A stretch of 64,000 nt of DNA, taken from positions 1 to 64,000 of IMG/VR virus record IMGVR_UViG_3300021478_000015. The stretch is one strand, 5' to 3'. Of this stretch, positions 41,666-49,390 are shown one piece after another. The position numbers and the translations under genes were made by a program. Position 1 is the first letter of the stretch; every line of letters starts with the position of its first letter. The notes under the pieces were generated by a model. That model did not search any database. It was given only the letters and a program-made list of their open reading frames with translations, and was not told the DNA's origin. This stretch comes from a virus.

Positions 41666-41694
41666 ACGTTAGCAAACTTTCCTAGAGAGTGCAA
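41666..41694 (-). promoter_or_regulatory. cassette promoter with mutated leaderless start
   Basis: Minus strand: TTGCAC, 17 bases ending TGC, TAACGT. Seven bases on, where ATG lies in sister cassettes, is ATA followed by ACC ACC ACC ACC GAG GCC ATT TGA. Its TGA overlaps ATG 41632 (TGATG). A GAGG ahead of that ATG could serve as ribosome site. So this copy has an 8-codon remnant or leader frame instead of a leaderless gene. Confidence 0.7.
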
Positions 41695-41774
41695 GTCGGG
41701 GTAGGTCCCCTACCCTTGTTGTCAGGTACAGGCCCCTCAAGTGCATAGATCCTTCGAAGCTCCTGAAAGTTAAG

Positions 41775-41830: not shown

Positions 41831-42889
41831 TCAAGCAGCCACCTCCACGGGGCGCTCCTTGGCCCCCTCGCCGTCTGACTCGCCGTCCTTGGTCCAGCGG
41901 ATGCCCTGGACCCAGTCGGCGGCGTACTGGGCCTGGGAGGCGGCCTGCATGAGCCACTTGGGCTCGCTCTGCAGCTTGGACAGCCAGCCCTGTAGGTAGG
42001 CGGCCGAGTTGTCGATGGTGGAGTTCTCGATCCCGGCGATCCCGCACAGCATGGCGGCGGTCATCTCCGCGGTTAGCTCCTCCTTGGAGTAGCTGGTGTC
42101 CCCGAAGGAGTGCGACTCCATCAGGTCCTTGCGGGCCAGGCGGCTGGCGTGGCCCGTCGAGTGGCCCATCTCATGGAACAGGGTCGAGTAGTAGGCCTCG
42201 GGGGTGGTGAAGGCGGTGGGCTCGGGCATGCCGATGAAGTCCCGGCTGGGCGAGTAGTAGGCCCGGTTGCCGCCGTGGTGGACCTCGACCTCGGTGTAGC
42301 CGTCCGCCAGGGCCTGAGCCGCCTCGATGGCGTCGAACTCGGGGGCATCCTCGGCGGCCTCGGAGGGCTGGAACTTCTTCGGGAGCGTGCCCTGGTGGAC
42401 CTGATCCTGGTTCCAGACGTTGAACTCCTTGGGGAAGCGGATCCGGACCTTGCGGACCTTGCCGGTGGCCTCGTCCTTCTCCTCCTTGACGAAGCTCCCC
42501 CACCAGATGACCTTGGTGCATTTCTCGCCCTTGCGGACCCCGAAGTCGAGCCCCTCGGGATGGACCCAGGAGTTGCCCTCCTTGACCGCCCCGGCCTGGC
42601 GCGCCCACTCGTCGTAGGTGGCCCAGAAGGTGGACTTGTAGCCCTTCTCCAGGGCCTCGCCCAGGAGCAGCCAGAGGTTGATGCCCCGGTAGAGCTTGCC
42701 GGTGGAGACCGAGCGGGGGAACATGGAGCCGCCGTCCGCGGCCTTCCATTCCTGCAGCCAGATCAGCTTCTTGGTCTGCAGCGACAGGGCGCAGATGCGG
42801 TCAACGACCGACTGGTAGAGGTCCTTGCGGGGCTTGGCGGGGGTGACCCGGCCGGACTTGGTGGACTTGGACTTGGTGGTGGTGGCCAT
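41831..42889 (-). CDS. ardC-like: ArdC-type antirestriction protein with zincin-like protease domain
   Basis: 352 residues from ATG 42889, exactly seven bases after the -10 and without ribosome site (leaderless). The N-terminal ssDNA-binding domain shows YQSVVDRICALSLQTKK, LYRGINLWLLLGEAL and a FGVRKGEKCTKVIWW segment, the DUF1738 pattern of ArdC. The C-terminal half has the HEMGH metallopeptidase motif (FHEMGHSTGHASR, about 237-249) and a downstream Glu-rich helix (KEELTAEMTAAML). ArdC proteins protect incoming DNA from restriction. The upstream start (43045) reads through promoter and terminator and is rejected. It starts MATTTK, as the cassette predicts. Confidence 0.85.
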   Translation of the reverse strand: MATTTKSKSTKSGRVTPAKPRKDLYQSVVDRICALSLQTKKLIWLQEWKAADGGSMFPRSVSTGKLYRGINLWLLLGEALEKGYKSTFWATYDEWARQAGAVKEGNSWVHPEGLDFGVRKGEKCTKVIWWGSFVKEEKDEATGKVRKVRIRFPKEFNVWNQDQVHQGTLPKKFQPSEAAEDAPEFDAIEAAQALADGYTEVEVHHGGNRAYYSPSRDFIGMPEPTAFTTPEAYYSTLFHEMGHSTGHASRLARKDLMESHSFGDTSYSKEELTAEMTAAMLCGIAGIENSTIDNSAAYLQGWLSKLQSEPKWLMQAASQAQYAADWVQGIRWTKDGESDGEGAKERPVEVAA

Positions 42890-42896
42890 GGGAAGT

Positions 42897-42925
42897 ACGT
42901 TAGCAGACTTTCTTAGAGGGCGCAA
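42897..42925 (-). promoter_or_regulatory. leaderless cassette promoter (ArdC)
   Basis: Minus strand: TTGCGC, spacer CCTCTAAGAAAGTCTGC, TAACGT, ACTTCCC, ATG. The -10 to ATG distance is 7. The start is followed by GCC ACC ACC ACC. Confidence 0.75.
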
Positions 42926-42944
42926 GTCACCTTTGGCAAGAATG

Positions 42945-44952: not shown

Positions 44953-44981
44953 ACCTTAGCAGGAATCCTTAGAGGGCGCAA
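44953..44981 (-). promoter_or_regulatory. leaderless cassette promoter
   Basis: Minus strand: TTGCGC, spacer CCTCTAAGGATTCCTGC, TAAGGT, GCTTGCC, ATG. Start followed by CCA CAG ACC ACC ACC. Confidence 0.75.
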
Positions 44982-44992
44982 GTCGCCCAGGA

Positions 44993-46279
44993 CTACCAGC
45001 CCCAGGGGGCGATGGGCTCCCAGCCCAGCTTGGCCGTCACCTTGTTGATGGCGTCCTGGATGGCGTGCTGGGTCGCGTCTTCGCGGGCCTCGGGATGGCC
45101 CTGGTCGGCCACCCAGTCAGAGCCCTCACAGACACGGCCTTCGAGGTCAGCCCGCTGGAGCTTCCCGGTGCTGATCTCGCTGAGTATCAGCGTGACCATG
45201 CGGTGGACGGTAACGCCGCCCATGTGAGAGGGCATCTGATAAGGGGGAATCTCGCTCTTGGCCGGGCACTTTGATTTCGGTTGTGTCTTAGTAGTGGTCA
45301 TGGTGGACATCTTATCAAACTTCCTTATAGTAGCGGCGGTAGTTGTGGGGATTTGTGTCTTTGTTGTGAGGAAGGGGTCCAGGAGATCGCGGAAGTCTTC
45401 GTTCGTAGTGAGATCCCATATCGGAAACTTAATATCCTCGTTGTACTTCCGGTATAACCGGGCTGCTTCTAAATAATCAGGATCGCACCACTCACCCTCA
45501 TGCACCAGTCCGGTGATGCGGAAGTCACTATTCTCAAGGTCTGGGTAGTCCATCCAGCCCTTGGCCGGGGTAACGAGATGTCTGGGTGTCCTATGCCGCT
45601 CTTCCGGGCTGGCGGCGTCGTACCAGGCCTGCCATTCAGGTGTCCTTCTAAACCTGGAGTCCCTACTACTAGTATCCTTCCAGATCTTTCGTTGCTGTGC
45701 GTATCGTTGCACCCATCTCTTTATCTCAGTATCAGGCCAATCCTTGATTGCAGCCTGGGTTAACGCAGGTGGTACGTTGATCACATACATCAGCTTTGGT
45801 ATCTTGTGACCGGCTGCATAGTCTCTTGCTATTGCTTCGCTGAACTGAGTATGGGGGACTACTAGTGTCTGATCTGTTATCAGGCTGGATCCGACTCTTA
45901 TATTGGTGGATCCGAGTTCTCCATATCCACCGTAGCAAGGATGAATCAGTATCTTGGCCTTAGGGGGTCCTCCACTCACGTTTCTCACGTATTCAGGCGG
46001 TAGTAGCCTGTGGTGTAAGCGCTTGCTCTTGCCCTCGTCGTAGTTTCTGATCGTGGCTGGCCCATATACTTCAGCTATGCAATGCTCTCCTGTCTGTTGA
46101 GTCATGTCCGTCAACAGAGGATCGACAATGGATGTCACGATTTCCCACCAGGGCCAGCAGTTCGTGTTGGGTATGTACGATCCTGAGCCCTGACTGCCGT
46201 TCAGTAGCTGGCGGGAATCGATCACTGATCCATCGGTCAGGGTCATGGGGCCGCCGATGAGGATTATGGTGATGCTCAT
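44993..46279 (-). CDS. fusion: unknown paralog joined in frame to a second small gene
   Basis: 428 residues from ATG 46279. The first 310 or so match the upstream neighbour (46276-47067) segment by segment: TIILIGG, LTDGSVIDSRQL, NCWPWWEIVTSIVDPLL, EAARLYRKYNEDIKFPIWDL and NEDFRDLLDPFL. The neighbour stops three residues after DPFL, while this copy runs on through a linker into MSTMTTTKTQPKSKCPAKSE and a separate 100-residue domain. That second part begins at ATG 45301 behind a decayed cassette promoter, so it was once, or still is, its own gene. The first part's function is unknown. A 130-residue extra segment in the middle (about 190-240) is missing from the neighbour. Confidence 0.6.
   Translation of the reverse strand: MSITIILIGGPMTLTDGSVIDSRQLLNGSQGSGSYIPNTNCWPWWEIVTSIVDPLLTDMTQQTGEHCIAEVYGPATIRNYDEGKSKRLHHRLLPPEYVRNVSGGPPKAKILIHPCYGGYGELGSTNIRVGSSLITDQTLVVPHTQFSEAIARDYAAGHKIPKLMYVINVPPALTQAAIKDWPDTEIKRWVQRYAQQRKIWKDTSSRDSRFRRTPEWQAWYDAASPEERHRTPRHLVTPAKGWMDYPDLENSDFRITGLVHEGEWCDPDYLEAARLYRKYNEDIKFPIWDLTTNEDFRDLLDPFLTTKTQIPTTTAATIRKFDKMSTMTTTKTQPKSKCPAKSEIPPYQMPSHMGGVTVHRMVTLILSEISTGKLQRADLEGRVCEGSDWVADQGHPEAREDATQHAIQDAINKVTAKLGWEPIAPWGW
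45309..45337 (-). promoter_or_regulatory. decayed cassette promoter inside the fused gene
   Basis: Minus strand: GCCGCT in place of the -35, spacer ACTATAAGGAAGTTTGA, TAAGAT, then seven bases to ATG 45301 and ACC ACT ACT. The spacer and -10 are conserved, the -35 is lost, and the region is now read through in frame. Confidence 0.5.
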
Positions 46280-47067
46280 GTCGCCACCAGGAAGGGATCC
46301 AGGAGATCGCGGAAGTCTTCGTTCGTAGCGAGATCCCATATCGGGAACTTGATGTCCTCGTTGTGCTCCAGGTACCGCCGGGCTGCCTCCAGGTAGCAAG
46401 GGTCACACCACTTGCCACCCTTGACAAGACCTGTGATGCTGAAGTCACCATCCTCAGTGAATAGATCGCTGTTAGGAGATGCTTTAGTTTGAGGATGTTG
46501 ATTCTGGCGGTTCCAGCGATGTTCGCTGAACTGGTTGTGCGGAAGGATTATTATTTGCGCTGAATCAAAGCCTCTGATGTCTTGATTGTAATATGAGCGA
46601 ATCTGTATTCTCACATCACGCTTATACTTGGGTGAGCGTTGAGGATAGTACTCTATATCTGGGTTGGATGAGAGTAGGAGTTGGTTCAATCTAGAGTACT
46701 TGGCTAAGGCTATCCTATAAGGTCCTTCAATGATAGGCCTAATAGTGGGGATGCTTGATCTTAGGAGGGTTTCTAGATTTCTTCTTCTTGGCTTACCATT
46801 GCTAAACTCCATAGTCCACAGCGGGCAATCCTTGATCTCAGCTAGGGAGTGATCTCCGATCTGAGTTTCGAAGTCCTTTTGTCCGAAGCCTTGAAGTAAT
46901 GGATTGACTATTGAAATCACTGTTTCCCACCATGACCAACAGTTCGTATGTACTCTCATACTCGGGTATGTATACGGTAGTTGTCTAGAGTCAATGGTAG
47001 ATCCATCGGATAGGGTTATGAGACCACCGATGAGAATGATGGTGGTAGGCTCCTTAGCTAGCGACAT
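46276..47067 (-). CDS. unknown protein, tandem paralog of the next gene
   Basis: 263 residues from the minus-strand ATG at 47067 (in-frame start MSLAKEPTTIILIGG). It shares with the following gene TIILIGG, LSDGSTIDSRQL, NCWSWWETVISIVNPLL, the PHNQFSEH segment, a KWCDPCYLEAARRYLEHNED stretch and NEDFRDLLDPFL. No catalytic motif is seen. Its base composition is far more AT-rich than the rest of the phage, so it may be recently acquired or under relaxed codon selection. Stop and next start overlap (ATGA). It overlaps the helicase stop by 14 bases. Confidence 0.6.
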   Translation of the reverse strand: MSLAKEPTTIILIGGLITLSDGSTIDSRQLPYTYPSMRVHTNCWSWWETVISIVNPLLQGFGQKDFETQIGDHSLAEIKDCPLWTMEFSNGKPRRRNLETLLRSSIPTIRPIIEGPYRIALAKYSRLNQLLLSSNPDIEYYPQRSPKYKRDVRIQIRSYYNQDIRGFDSAQIIILPHNQFSEHRWNRQNQHPQTKASPNSDLFTEDGDFSITGLVKGGKWCDPCYLEAARRYLEHNEDIKFPIWDLATNEDFRDLLDPFLVAT

Positions 47068-48949
47068 GGTATTGATCCTGGTAGGCAAGGAGTCTTTCTC
47101 TAAGTCTTTTGTTGCGTGAAGCTGCCAGAGCAAGAGTCGTAGCATCGACGGTTACTAGCTTGCCACGTTGTCTTTGATCTTCGATGTACAACTCGGCGCA
47201 CTCGATGAGCTTGACGGTGCCATATCCCCCTTGGGTGTCATAGGCGTCTCCTAGCTCAGCCACGGTGCCCAGGGGCTCGAATCGGACTCTCGGCTTAGGA
47301 GCACCCCGGACCTTGACTACCGGGGGATTAGCAGGCTCACCCTCGATCACGGTGAGGGGTGGTAACAGAGGGACCTCTCGTCTTATCCGTTCGGCCATGG
47401 AGATCAGGTCGGGATCGGCGGGCATGTAGATCCGGCCGATGTTGGTCGGGTCGTTGGGATCGATTCGCATCACCCGGCCCACGATCTGGCGGAAAGCCAG
47501 CTTGGTCTTGGTATTGGTCAGGTAGACCACGGCTCGCAGACGGCGGATGTCGATGCCCTCCGAGATCATGTTGACGGCCACCAGCCAGCGCTTGCTGGCA
47601 TGGTGGGCCTTGAACTGGCGGATGACATCGGCGGCATTTTGATCGTCAGGGTTGGTGTCCTTGGACCAGGCCTTCATCGGTTTGATACCGGTGATCTTCT
47701 CTAGGCGCTTGGCGATGCGTTCGGCGTGATCACAGTCGTAACACACCACTAATCCGGCAGCATCAGGATCACCATTGTCGCGGATATCGATCAGCCAATC
47801 ATTGGCTTTGTGTATTAGCTGATCGGTGATGGTCCCATCCCCGATGCAATCCAGGGCGGTAAGCAGACGGCGTTTCTTTCCGAGTGTGCTTACATCCGGG
47901 TCGTTAAAGTCGAGGGTGTGCTCGGTGCCGTCCTCGTTGCGGAAGGTGGTCGATCCCTGGGTAGTGAGGAACTGCACCCGGCGGCAGGCCGGAGGTTTGT
48001 CCCGAAGAGCATGGCCATAGGTGTAGCGATAGAGCGGTTTGGCAGCACCTCCGGTATGGGGCACGAAGGCAATCTTCTTGGCGTCGGTACGGAACGGGGT
48101 CCCTGACATCGACAGGATGCACCGGGCTCCCTGGGCGAAGGCGGTCTGGGCGGCCAGGCCCCAGGTCTTGTCGGTGGCGACGTGGTGGACCTCATCGAAG
48201 ATGACCAGGGTGTTGTGGTGAACGTTGGTGGTCGTCCGGCCCTTTTTCTCGATACTGATGTCAGTGGCGTGGGCCAGGAAGGTGTCAGTCATTCTGGCCA
48301 GGGATTGGTAGCTGAGGACCGCTCCCACAGCGTTGTCTGGGATGGCCCTGGTGGGCCTCCAGATCGCCCCTCTGGTGCTAACCAGGGGCAGGGTGGGGTT
48401 GTCGGGCTCTCGCTTGCTGGCGGCTAGCAGCCAGCCGTCTGCGATGCCGATGGTGTGAACCACCACCAACACCCGCGAGATCTCCCCAGCCTTGATCAGA
48501 TGGTGGGCTACCTCCAGGGCCAGGCGGGTCTTGCCTGCACCGGGGCAGGCCTCGATCAGTACCGGGTCGTTCAGGATACGGGGTAGGATCTTGTCCAGAG
48601 CCTGCTCCTGCCAGTGCCGGAGCCTGTCGTCCCCGGCTGCCAGCAGGTCCAGGTTGAACTGCTTGGCCAGGGTCTCGTAGGTCTGGTTGCCCTTGCGGGC
48701 GTTGCAATGACGGCACAGGGCCATGAGGTTGGAGTAGACGGTGCGGCCACCCTTGCTCCAGGGGAAGACGTGGTCGCCGTCGAAGAGGTCACGGGGAAGC
48801 TCGCGCTGGCAGGGCGGGCACTTCCTGCCTTGGGCCTCCCACTTGCGGATCACCTCGGCGCGGCTGAACCTCCGGTGAGGATCCCGTTGATCCAGGGGTA
48901 CGTCAGGGATCTTGGGCTCGCCCAGCAGGACGGCTCCGGTGAGGTTCAT
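47054..48949 (-). CDS. HNH nuclease fused to superfamily 2 helicase
   Basis: 631 residues. Residues about 44-88 are an HNH nuclease: KCPPCQRELPRDLFDGDHVF, then NLMALCRHCNARKGN, with two Cys pairs and the DH/N/H catalytic set. A helicase follows: Walker A CPGAGKT (about 135-141), DEVH (about 252-255), SGTPFRTD (about 282-289), and SEGIDIRRLRAVVYL with QIVGRVMRID as motifs V and VI. A C-terminal 100-residue region has no motif. Fusions of a nuclease to an SF2 translocase are typical of restriction-like or defence systems. It may destroy host or rival DNA. Coupled to a basic small protein upstream. Confidence 0.85.
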   Translation of the reverse strand: MNLTGAVLLGEPKIPDVPLDQRDPHRRFSRAEVIRKWEAQGRKCPPCQRELPRDLFDGDHVFPWSKGGRTVYSNLMALCRHCNARKGNQTYETLAKQFNLDLLAAGDDRLRHWQEQALDKILPRILNDPVLIEACPGAGKTRLALEVAHHLIKAGEISRVLVVVHTIGIADGWLLAASKREPDNPTLPLVSTRGAIWRPTRAIPDNAVGAVLSYQSLARMTDTFLAHATDISIEKKGRTTTNVHHNTLVIFDEVHHVATDKTWGLAAQTAFAQGARCILSMSGTPFRTDAKKIAFVPHTGGAAKPLYRYTYGHALRDKPPACRRVQFLTTQGSTTFRNEDGTEHTLDFNDPDVSTLGKKRRLLTALDCIGDGTITDQLIHKANDWLIDIRDNGDPDAAGLVVCYDCDHAERIAKRLEKITGIKPMKAWSKDTNPDDQNAADVIRQFKAHHASKRWLVAVNMISEGIDIRRLRAVVYLTNTKTKLAFRQIVGRVMRIDPNDPTNIGRIYMPADPDLISMAERIRREVPLLPPLTVIEGEPANPPVVKVRGAPKPRVRFEPLGTVAELGDAYDTQGGYGTVKLIECAELYIEDQRQRGKLVTVDATTLALAASRNKRLRERLLAYQDQYHVAS

Positions 48950-49089
48950 GACTCCACCTGGACCCGGCCCCGGCAGGCGCGCTTAGCGGCCACCTTCTTC
49001 TTGGACTGGACGGTCTTGGCCCGCAGGGGGACGTGGGGGTTCATGACCCGCGCCCCAGGGCGGGCGGAGGTGCGTCTGGGCTTGGCCAT
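48946..49089 (-). CDS. small basic protein
   Basis: 47 residues, MAKPRRTSARPGARVMNPHV and onward, with a KKKVAAKRACRGR core. Start at minus-strand ATG 49089; ATGA overlaps on both sides. It could bind nucleic acid and partner the HNH-helicase. It is below the length usually called as a gene, so is easily missed. Confidence 0.5.
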   Translation of the reverse strand: MAKPRRTSARPGARVMNPHVPLRAKTVQSKKKVAAKRACRGRVQVES

Positions 49090-49340
49090 CAGACCTCCAC
49101 CTCCACGGTGACCTTGCCACCCTCGATGGCGACCAGCTTGGCCCCCAACCGGCGCACACGGGCCAACACGGCCCCGGAGGAGGAGTGGGCGTAGCCCACG
49201 ATCTCAGCCCCGGTGAAGGTCTTCTCGAAGCCCACGCCCCGGCCGTTCCGGACGATCATCTCGCCCTTGGCGTAGTGGGCCTTGACCAAAGCGAACTTGG
49301 CCCCGGAGCGGGTCTTGATGGTGACGGTGGTGGTGGTCAT
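49089..49340 (-). CDS. small hypothetical protein, leaderless
   Basis: 83 residues from ATG 49340, seven bases after a cassette -10, starting MTTTTVTIKTRSG. It is a compact beta-rich domain (KFALVKAHYAKGEMIVRNGR, then GFEKTFTGAEIVGYAHSSSG) with a Gly/Ser turn. No cysteines. It heads the HNH-helicase operon. No family recognised. Confidence 0.6.
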   Translation of the reverse strand: MTTTTVTIKTRSGAKFALVKAHYAKGEMIVRNGRGVGFEKTFTGAEIVGYAHSSSGAVLARVRRLGAKLVAIEGGKVTVEVEV

Positions 49341-49347
49341 GGGAAGT

Positions 49348-49376
49348 ACCTTAGCAAACTTTCTTAGAGGGTGCAA
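49348..49376 (-). promoter_or_regulatory. leaderless cassette promoter (HNH-helicase operon)
   Basis: Minus strand: TTGCAC, spacer CCTCTAAGAAAGTTTGC, TAAGGT, ACTTCCC, ATG. Start followed by ACC ACC ACC ACC. Confidence 0.75.
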
Positions 49377-49390
49377 GTCACCCCGGACGC

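Follow-up and report, generated by a model that had tools for sequence, protein, structure and literature searches.

The minus-strand operon between positions 44993 and 49340 of the window, a 64-kb stretch of DNA that constitutes the start of a 156,983-bp IMG/VR phage record, holds a real two-gene module composed of an HNH-SF2 helicase and a partner protein, which has been acquired by or is shared with the phage and which looks undescribed. On balance, we consider it probable that this pair constitutes a rare and mobile conflict module, whose partner was duplicated in the phage and which would be used against competing or host DNA.

Organization of the phage operon

The record has a GC content of 62.4%, contains no tRNA genes and derives from a large phage, which is probably actinobacterial. 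In a twin contig (IMGVR_UViG_3300050821_007836), 11.6 kb of the region recur with five differences, all of them outside the operon genes. The operon consists of five genes, encoding proteins of 83 and 47 residues, the HNH-helicase (631 residues) and the two paralogs P1 (263 residues) and P2 (428 residues, Table 1). The presence of a 47-residue basic protein, an HNH-SF2 helicase and two paralogs in a single operon, as described in the original prediction, was confirmed, for the helicase by Pfam and for the paralogs by BLASTP, and so was the proposed overlap of genes, which is found as ATGA at 48946-48949 (47-residue protein and helicase) and 46276-46279 (P1 and P2), and as a 14 bp overlap of the start of P1 with the end of the helicase gene. 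An alternative start of P1 at an in-frame ATG at 47145 would extend the latter overlap to 92 bp. The interval of 46276-48949 to which the system had been assigned encompasses the helicase and P1 alone, with P2 and the small genes located outside, and the 83-residue gene had been missed. In family profile searches, the 83-residue protein showed no family above cut-off and the 47-residue protein no match. Since no counterpart of either gene was noticed in bacterial loci, we regard both as operon mates outside the conserved module.

Table 1. Features of the operon and related elements of the phage genome. Positions refer to the window unless indicated otherwise.
Feature	Position	Strand	Remarks
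83-residue orphan	49089..49340	-	nearest to promoter; phage-like coding score as open reading frame
47-residue basic orphan	48946..49089	-	ATGA overlap with helicase gene
HNH-SF2 (ResIII-type) helicase, 631 residues	47054..48949	-	Pfam HNH/ResIII/Helicase_C
HNH nuclease domain, residues 44-99	48653..48820	-	CxxC...DGDH...N...CxxC
P1, short partner-family protein, 263 residues	46276..47067	-	N-terminal core only
P1 C-terminal core block	46289..46456	-	DFSITGLV...DIKFPIWDL...LLDPF; 81% nucleotide identity with P2
P2, second partner-family protein, 428 residues	44993..46279	-	core and GC-rich tail
P2 C-terminal core block	45369..45536	-	counterpart of P1 block
Promoter-like repeat TTGCAC-N17-TAAGGT	49348..49377	-	-10 hexamer 7 nt before ATG at 49340
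Promoter repeat copies in window	41666-41695, 42897-42926, 44953-44982, 49348-49377	-	
Promoter repeat copy in phage genome	80367-80396 (genome)	+	
ArdC-like anti-restriction protein	41831..42889	-	ArdcN 8.1e-23, MPTase-PolyVal 6.1e-37; same promoter repeat

The operon is preceded by a promoter-like repeat with the consensus TTGCRC-N17-TAASGT, which is found a few bases 5' of start codons and which occurs in five copies in the 157-kb genome, compared to none for a reversed control pattern. Its distance to the ATG at 49340 makes the leaderless organization that had been predicted plausible, and a leaderless start at this codon is likely. Other copies head operons with ArdC-like (42889), topoisomerase-like (41632) and small (44945) genes, and the repeat apparently marks an early regulon, which would include the ArdC-like and the topoisomerase-like gene.

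In the helicase, a complete HNH domain (Pfam E-value 8.6e-12; PF01844 with 45.5 bits and PF14279 with 48.8 bits at cut-offs of 21.4 and 27.5) is combined with an SF2 core (ResIII E-value 1.5e-18; PF04851 with 67.7 bits and PF00271 with 34.2 bits at cut-offs of 22.5 and 23.5). The ligands of the HNH domain and its GDH motif align across all homologs, and the helicase motifs, including the Walker A sequence ACPGAGKT, DEVH, SGT and QIVGR (QxxGR), are intact and conserved. We have rejected the possibility that this protein acts as replicative helicase of the phage, a role made unlikely by the presence of DnaB, a DnaC-like loader, primase and SSB, which are encoded elsewhere in its genome alongside UvsX, DNA polymerase and exonucleases.

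The duplicated partners of the phage

P1 and P2 are related in two blocks detected by BLASTP, one at the N-terminus (E-value 6e-19, 48% identity over 90 residues) and one at the C-terminal end of the core (6e-28, 79% identity over 56 residues), which are separated by a divergent middle part. The C-terminal block shows a dN of 0.12 and a dS of 0.97, resulting in a dN/dS of about 0.12, and the N-terminal block a dN of 0.14 at saturated dS. Both ends are thus under strong purifying selection, and a dS of about 1 in combination with conserved ends indicates an old duplication that has been maintained. These values led us to reject both a recent duplication of the two genes and their interpretation as pseudogene debris. 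In line with the AT-richness noted in the original prediction, the GC content is 47.1% for P1 and 54.5% for P2, compared to 62.4% for the genome, whose 600-bp bin of lowest GC is located at 46401-47000. The recent gain that had been read from this composition is unsupported, as AT content does not by itself date an acquisition and as the dS between the paralogs is about 1.

The tail of P2 (about residues 305-428, of which the window region 44993-45307 covers about 325-428) is GC-rich and phage-like, with a GC3 of 0.76 for residues 305-428. It looks like a short phage gene appended to P2 by fusion, and a search with the tail gave no match. Tandem paralogs with unusually low GC for the phage are also found elsewhere in its genome, with six copies of about 190 residues at 119634-123074 and three of about 331 residues at 70310-73302, which are possibly structural or tail proteins.

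When searched directly against Pfam, PHROGs, PADLOC, NCBIfam, PDB sequences, phages, plasmids, viral contigs and genome contigs, P1 and P2 retrieved their near-identical twin contig only. A match of the paralogs to a structural or metabolic protein without link to the helicase, which the original prediction had named as the finding that would speak against it, was thus not obtained.

Helicase and partner are adjacent in bacteria

A search of genome contigs with the helicase identified ten loci at 46-50% identity, in addition to many with identities of at most 37%. The close homologs are found in Pseudonocardia, Streptomyces, Streptacidiphilus, metagenome-assembled genomes (MAGs) of actinomycetes, an Acidimicrobiaceae MAG and a Myxococcota MAG. 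In all nine loci with downstream sequence (L034-L042), the next gene encodes a single P1/P2 homolog of 440-680 residues, while the sequence of the tenth (L043) stops within the helicase. Because L039 nearly duplicates L040 and the helicase sequence is incomplete in L039-L041, about eight independent loci back the pair, and since all loci were reached via helicase searches, those containing a partner only are poorly sampled. The junctions between the bacterial genes are overlapping or abutting, mostly as ATGA. The homology of the partners is reciprocal, with E-values of 1.9e-18 for P1 against L042 in tblastn and 5.9e-17 for the L042 partner against the window, and P1 matches a partner profile at 3.8e-77 in hmmsearch, although this profile was built with P1 and P2 included.

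In a maximum likelihood tree calculated from 47 helicase domains, the nine members of the module that were included form one clade with a support of 100/100. The module label has a single origin on this tree, and an equally low number was obtained in none of 500 shuffles. The phage helicase is located within the module clade, where it branches near the Myxococcota member, and has a partner directly downstream; the phage differs by containing two shortened partners. A partner-profile search of all loci detected no partner at any other helicase locus that was fetched, the only additional hit being a weak distant relative in locus L125. The conserved adjacency in bacteria strongly supports a functional link between the helicase and P1/P2.

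Sequence and fold of the partner family

The N-terminus of the partners begins with the sequence 'TIILIGGPMT..DGS.LDSRQ', and residues kept in nearly all of ten sequences comprise GG, T, G, D.RQ, WW and K...WDL. A core of about 330 residues is common to the bacterial proteins and is represented by P1 and by residues 1-304 of P2; the C-terminal parts vary among the bacterial members. P1 and P2 lack a portion of the middle as well as most or all of the C-terminal region found in bacteria and may for this reason work differently from their bacterial counterparts.

Among the bacterial partners, no Pfam or PADLOC domain was detected except for a C-terminal HIRAN domain in the Pseudonocardia member (L034:7761-9764, Pfam E-value 3.6e-11). 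A second partner (L038:7797-9839) carries a Cys/His-rich end, which by eye resembles phage minor-head (MuF-like) proteins and has no Pfam match. The distant relative at L125:428-1830, which is apparently frameshifted and reads RFVLIGGPM ... WDLVKDPLLRAQL, is found without a helicase, adjoins a gene that by eye encodes a pyruvate-dehydrogenase E1 and suggests a wider partner superfamily.

An AlphaFold2 (AF2) prediction of a bacterial partner with 10 sequences yielded a fair model (pLDDT 76, pTM 0.62), for which Foldseek retrieved no significant structural match from PDB or BFVD, and the best VIA-align hit, to the RecA lobes of SF2 proteins, had a Z-score of 6.8, below the noise level of about 8. 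For P1 with P2 as sole companion sequence, no usable model was obtained (pLDDT 33). PADLOC (2023) contains no model of the partner, and our search of the literature accessible without subscription found no published description of the pair. The family appears undescribed.

Genomic neighbourhoods and distribution

Most bacterial copies adjoin genes of recombinases, AbiE, ABC-3C/Cap4, NB-ARC-TPR or caspase proteins. In L038 and L132, these neighbours are a serine recombinase, AbiEi/AbiEii and a TraG/TrwB-like protein, in L035 (Streptomyces geranii) an ABC-3C DUF3732 protein with a CTD7/Cap4 nuclease domain and a caspase, in L034 an NB-ARC-TPR protein and recombinase remnants (the latter identified by eye from translations) and in L037 (Streptacidiphilus) a GIY-YIG protein. 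L036 adjoins housekeeping genes, as judged by eye from translations. Taken together, the neighbourhoods place the pair beside antiviral genes in a small number of soil bacteria and point to conflict biology. Next to the Streptomyces module (L129:2195-9974), we also observed two ABC-3C-like sets of genes, which differ from each other and are oppositely oriented, one recognized as DUF3732/CTD7 by Pfam and the other by eye.

The distribution of the module is sporadic, comprising about 0.3-1% of sampled genomes. Including the seed genomes in all counts, it was found in 2/394 genomes of the Streptomyces family, 1/396 of a phylum sample, 1/249 of the family of G001 and 1/195 of the phylum of G003, and the order of G006 contained three full-length copies and one weak relic in 298 genomes.

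Proposed function and alternative explanations

We assume that invading DNA is the most likely target of the module in bacteria. The partner, with its alpha/beta N-terminal core and variable C-terminal part, would recognise a DNA state or an infection signal and then license or load the helicase, whose SF2 motor would translocate on DNA and whose fused HNH domain would nick or cut it. The phage copy, residing in an early-type, anti-restriction-associated cluster with two tandem copies of a partner that has been trimmed to its core, would most likely be directed against competing or host DNA. The defence or takeover system of the original prediction holds with respect to the link between helicase and paralogs, which is backed by conserved adjacency; the anti-phage role, for which neighbourhoods and sporadic distribution speak, and the mechanism are what we infer from sequence. 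Somewhat more tentatively, and with slightly less than even confidence, we propose that the pair represents an undescribed class of nuclease-helicase anti-phage systems with a new partner family, located in mobile and defence regions of actinobacteria and myxococcota, and that the phage employs its duplicated core-only partner as part of an inter-phage weapon. About eight independent bacterial loci, one of them (L036) located beside housekeeping genes, are few for guilt by association.

Alternatively, the phage HNH-helicase might degrade host DNA or resolve replication or recombination intermediates. P1 and P2 would then serve as regulatory subunits, and the phage would not use the enzyme against other mobile elements. 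Such host takeover would be in line with partner-less HNH-SF2 fusions in other phages, as in Saccharomonospora phage PIS 136, with the location of the gene in a separate early-type cluster and with host-DNA nucleases being common in phages. We consider it rather unlikely, as the other phage helicases are just 31-34% identical and located outside the module clade, as DnaB, primase, UvsX and exonucleases are already present in the phage, and as the defence-type neighbours of the bacterial copies give no hint of a housekeeping function. The duplication of P1 and P2, with retained core and lost bacterial C-terminal part, and the early-type promoter that their operon has in common with the ArdC anti-restriction gene would also suit a role as decoys or as dominant-negative subunits, by which the bacterial module would be poisoned. 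We regard this counter-defence role as quite improbable, because a decoy does not require a complete, motif-intact HNH-helicase in the same operon and because the rarity of the module in bacteria would provide little selection for a dedicated inhibitor. Finally, the ResIII-type SF2 core resembles RadD (YejH), and weak matches to RadD (NF053632) and to the phrog_16 helicase family could be taken to indicate an ordinary phage repair helicase of the RadD/ResIII type, with unrelated AT-rich neighbours that are adjacent by chance. This explanation is barely credible, since the RadD score of 30.8 bits is far below the cut-off of 720, placing the protein outside this family, and since every close homolog, from either of two phyla, has kept the adjacent partner, which contradicts chance.

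If our favoured assignment as conflict module is correct, the anti-phage repertoire would gain a DNA-targeting system of two genes with a new partner family, which due to its rarity was overlooked by PADLOC and Pfam, and the phage would provide an example of a virus bearing its own version with remodelled partner. The core-only phage proteins hint at the indispensable part of the partner, and the small size of the pair makes it amenable to tests in standard laboratory strains of Streptomyces.

Relationship to known systems

With Gabija (GajAB), Zorya II (ZorD/ZorE) and PbeABCD, the module shares the combination of helicase and nuclease and a generic SF2/HNH similarity. PbeA is the best PADLOC match of the helicase (4.4e-16), which is confined to the helicase lobes, and PADLOC found no GajA, ZorE or PbeB-D for the partner. 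PbeABCD, which depends on phosphorothioation, requires PbeB, PbeC, PbeD and Dnd genes, whereas the operon mates and partners show no Pbe match, and Gabija combines an OLD/TOPRIM nuclease (GajA) with a UvrD-type helicase (GajB), to which our ResIII-type protein has weak P-loop similarity. The helicase of phage PIS 136 (AFM10482.1) likewise combines an SF2 core with an HNH-like domain at the N-terminus, but it is 34% identical, located outside the module clade and not accompanied by a partner gene.

In Druantia III (DruH-DruE), a sensor and a helicase-nuclease effector have been proposed to act on DNA intermediates (PMC13192584). Among the matches listed for our proteins, none is of Druantia, DUF1998 or YprA type, and the partner matches no Druantia model. 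Hachiman, which consists of the nuclease HamA (DUF1837) and the Ski2-like sensor helicase HamB, is similar in being a two-gene system with an SF2 helicase, an otherwise unannotated partner and DNA nuclease activity (PMC12278908). In our module, however, the nuclease is an HNH domain that forms part of the ResIII-type helicase protein, and no PADLOC or Pfam model matches the partner. HamA was not matched by P1, P2 or six bacterial partners in Pfam and PADLOC, sequence tests that are blind to remote structural kinship, and no HamB model is found among the 25 PADLOC hits listed, out of 45 families matched in total. By analogy to Hachiman and Druantia III (PMC12278908; PMC13192584), we favour partner-licensed translocation combined with HNH cleavage as the putative mode of action of the module.
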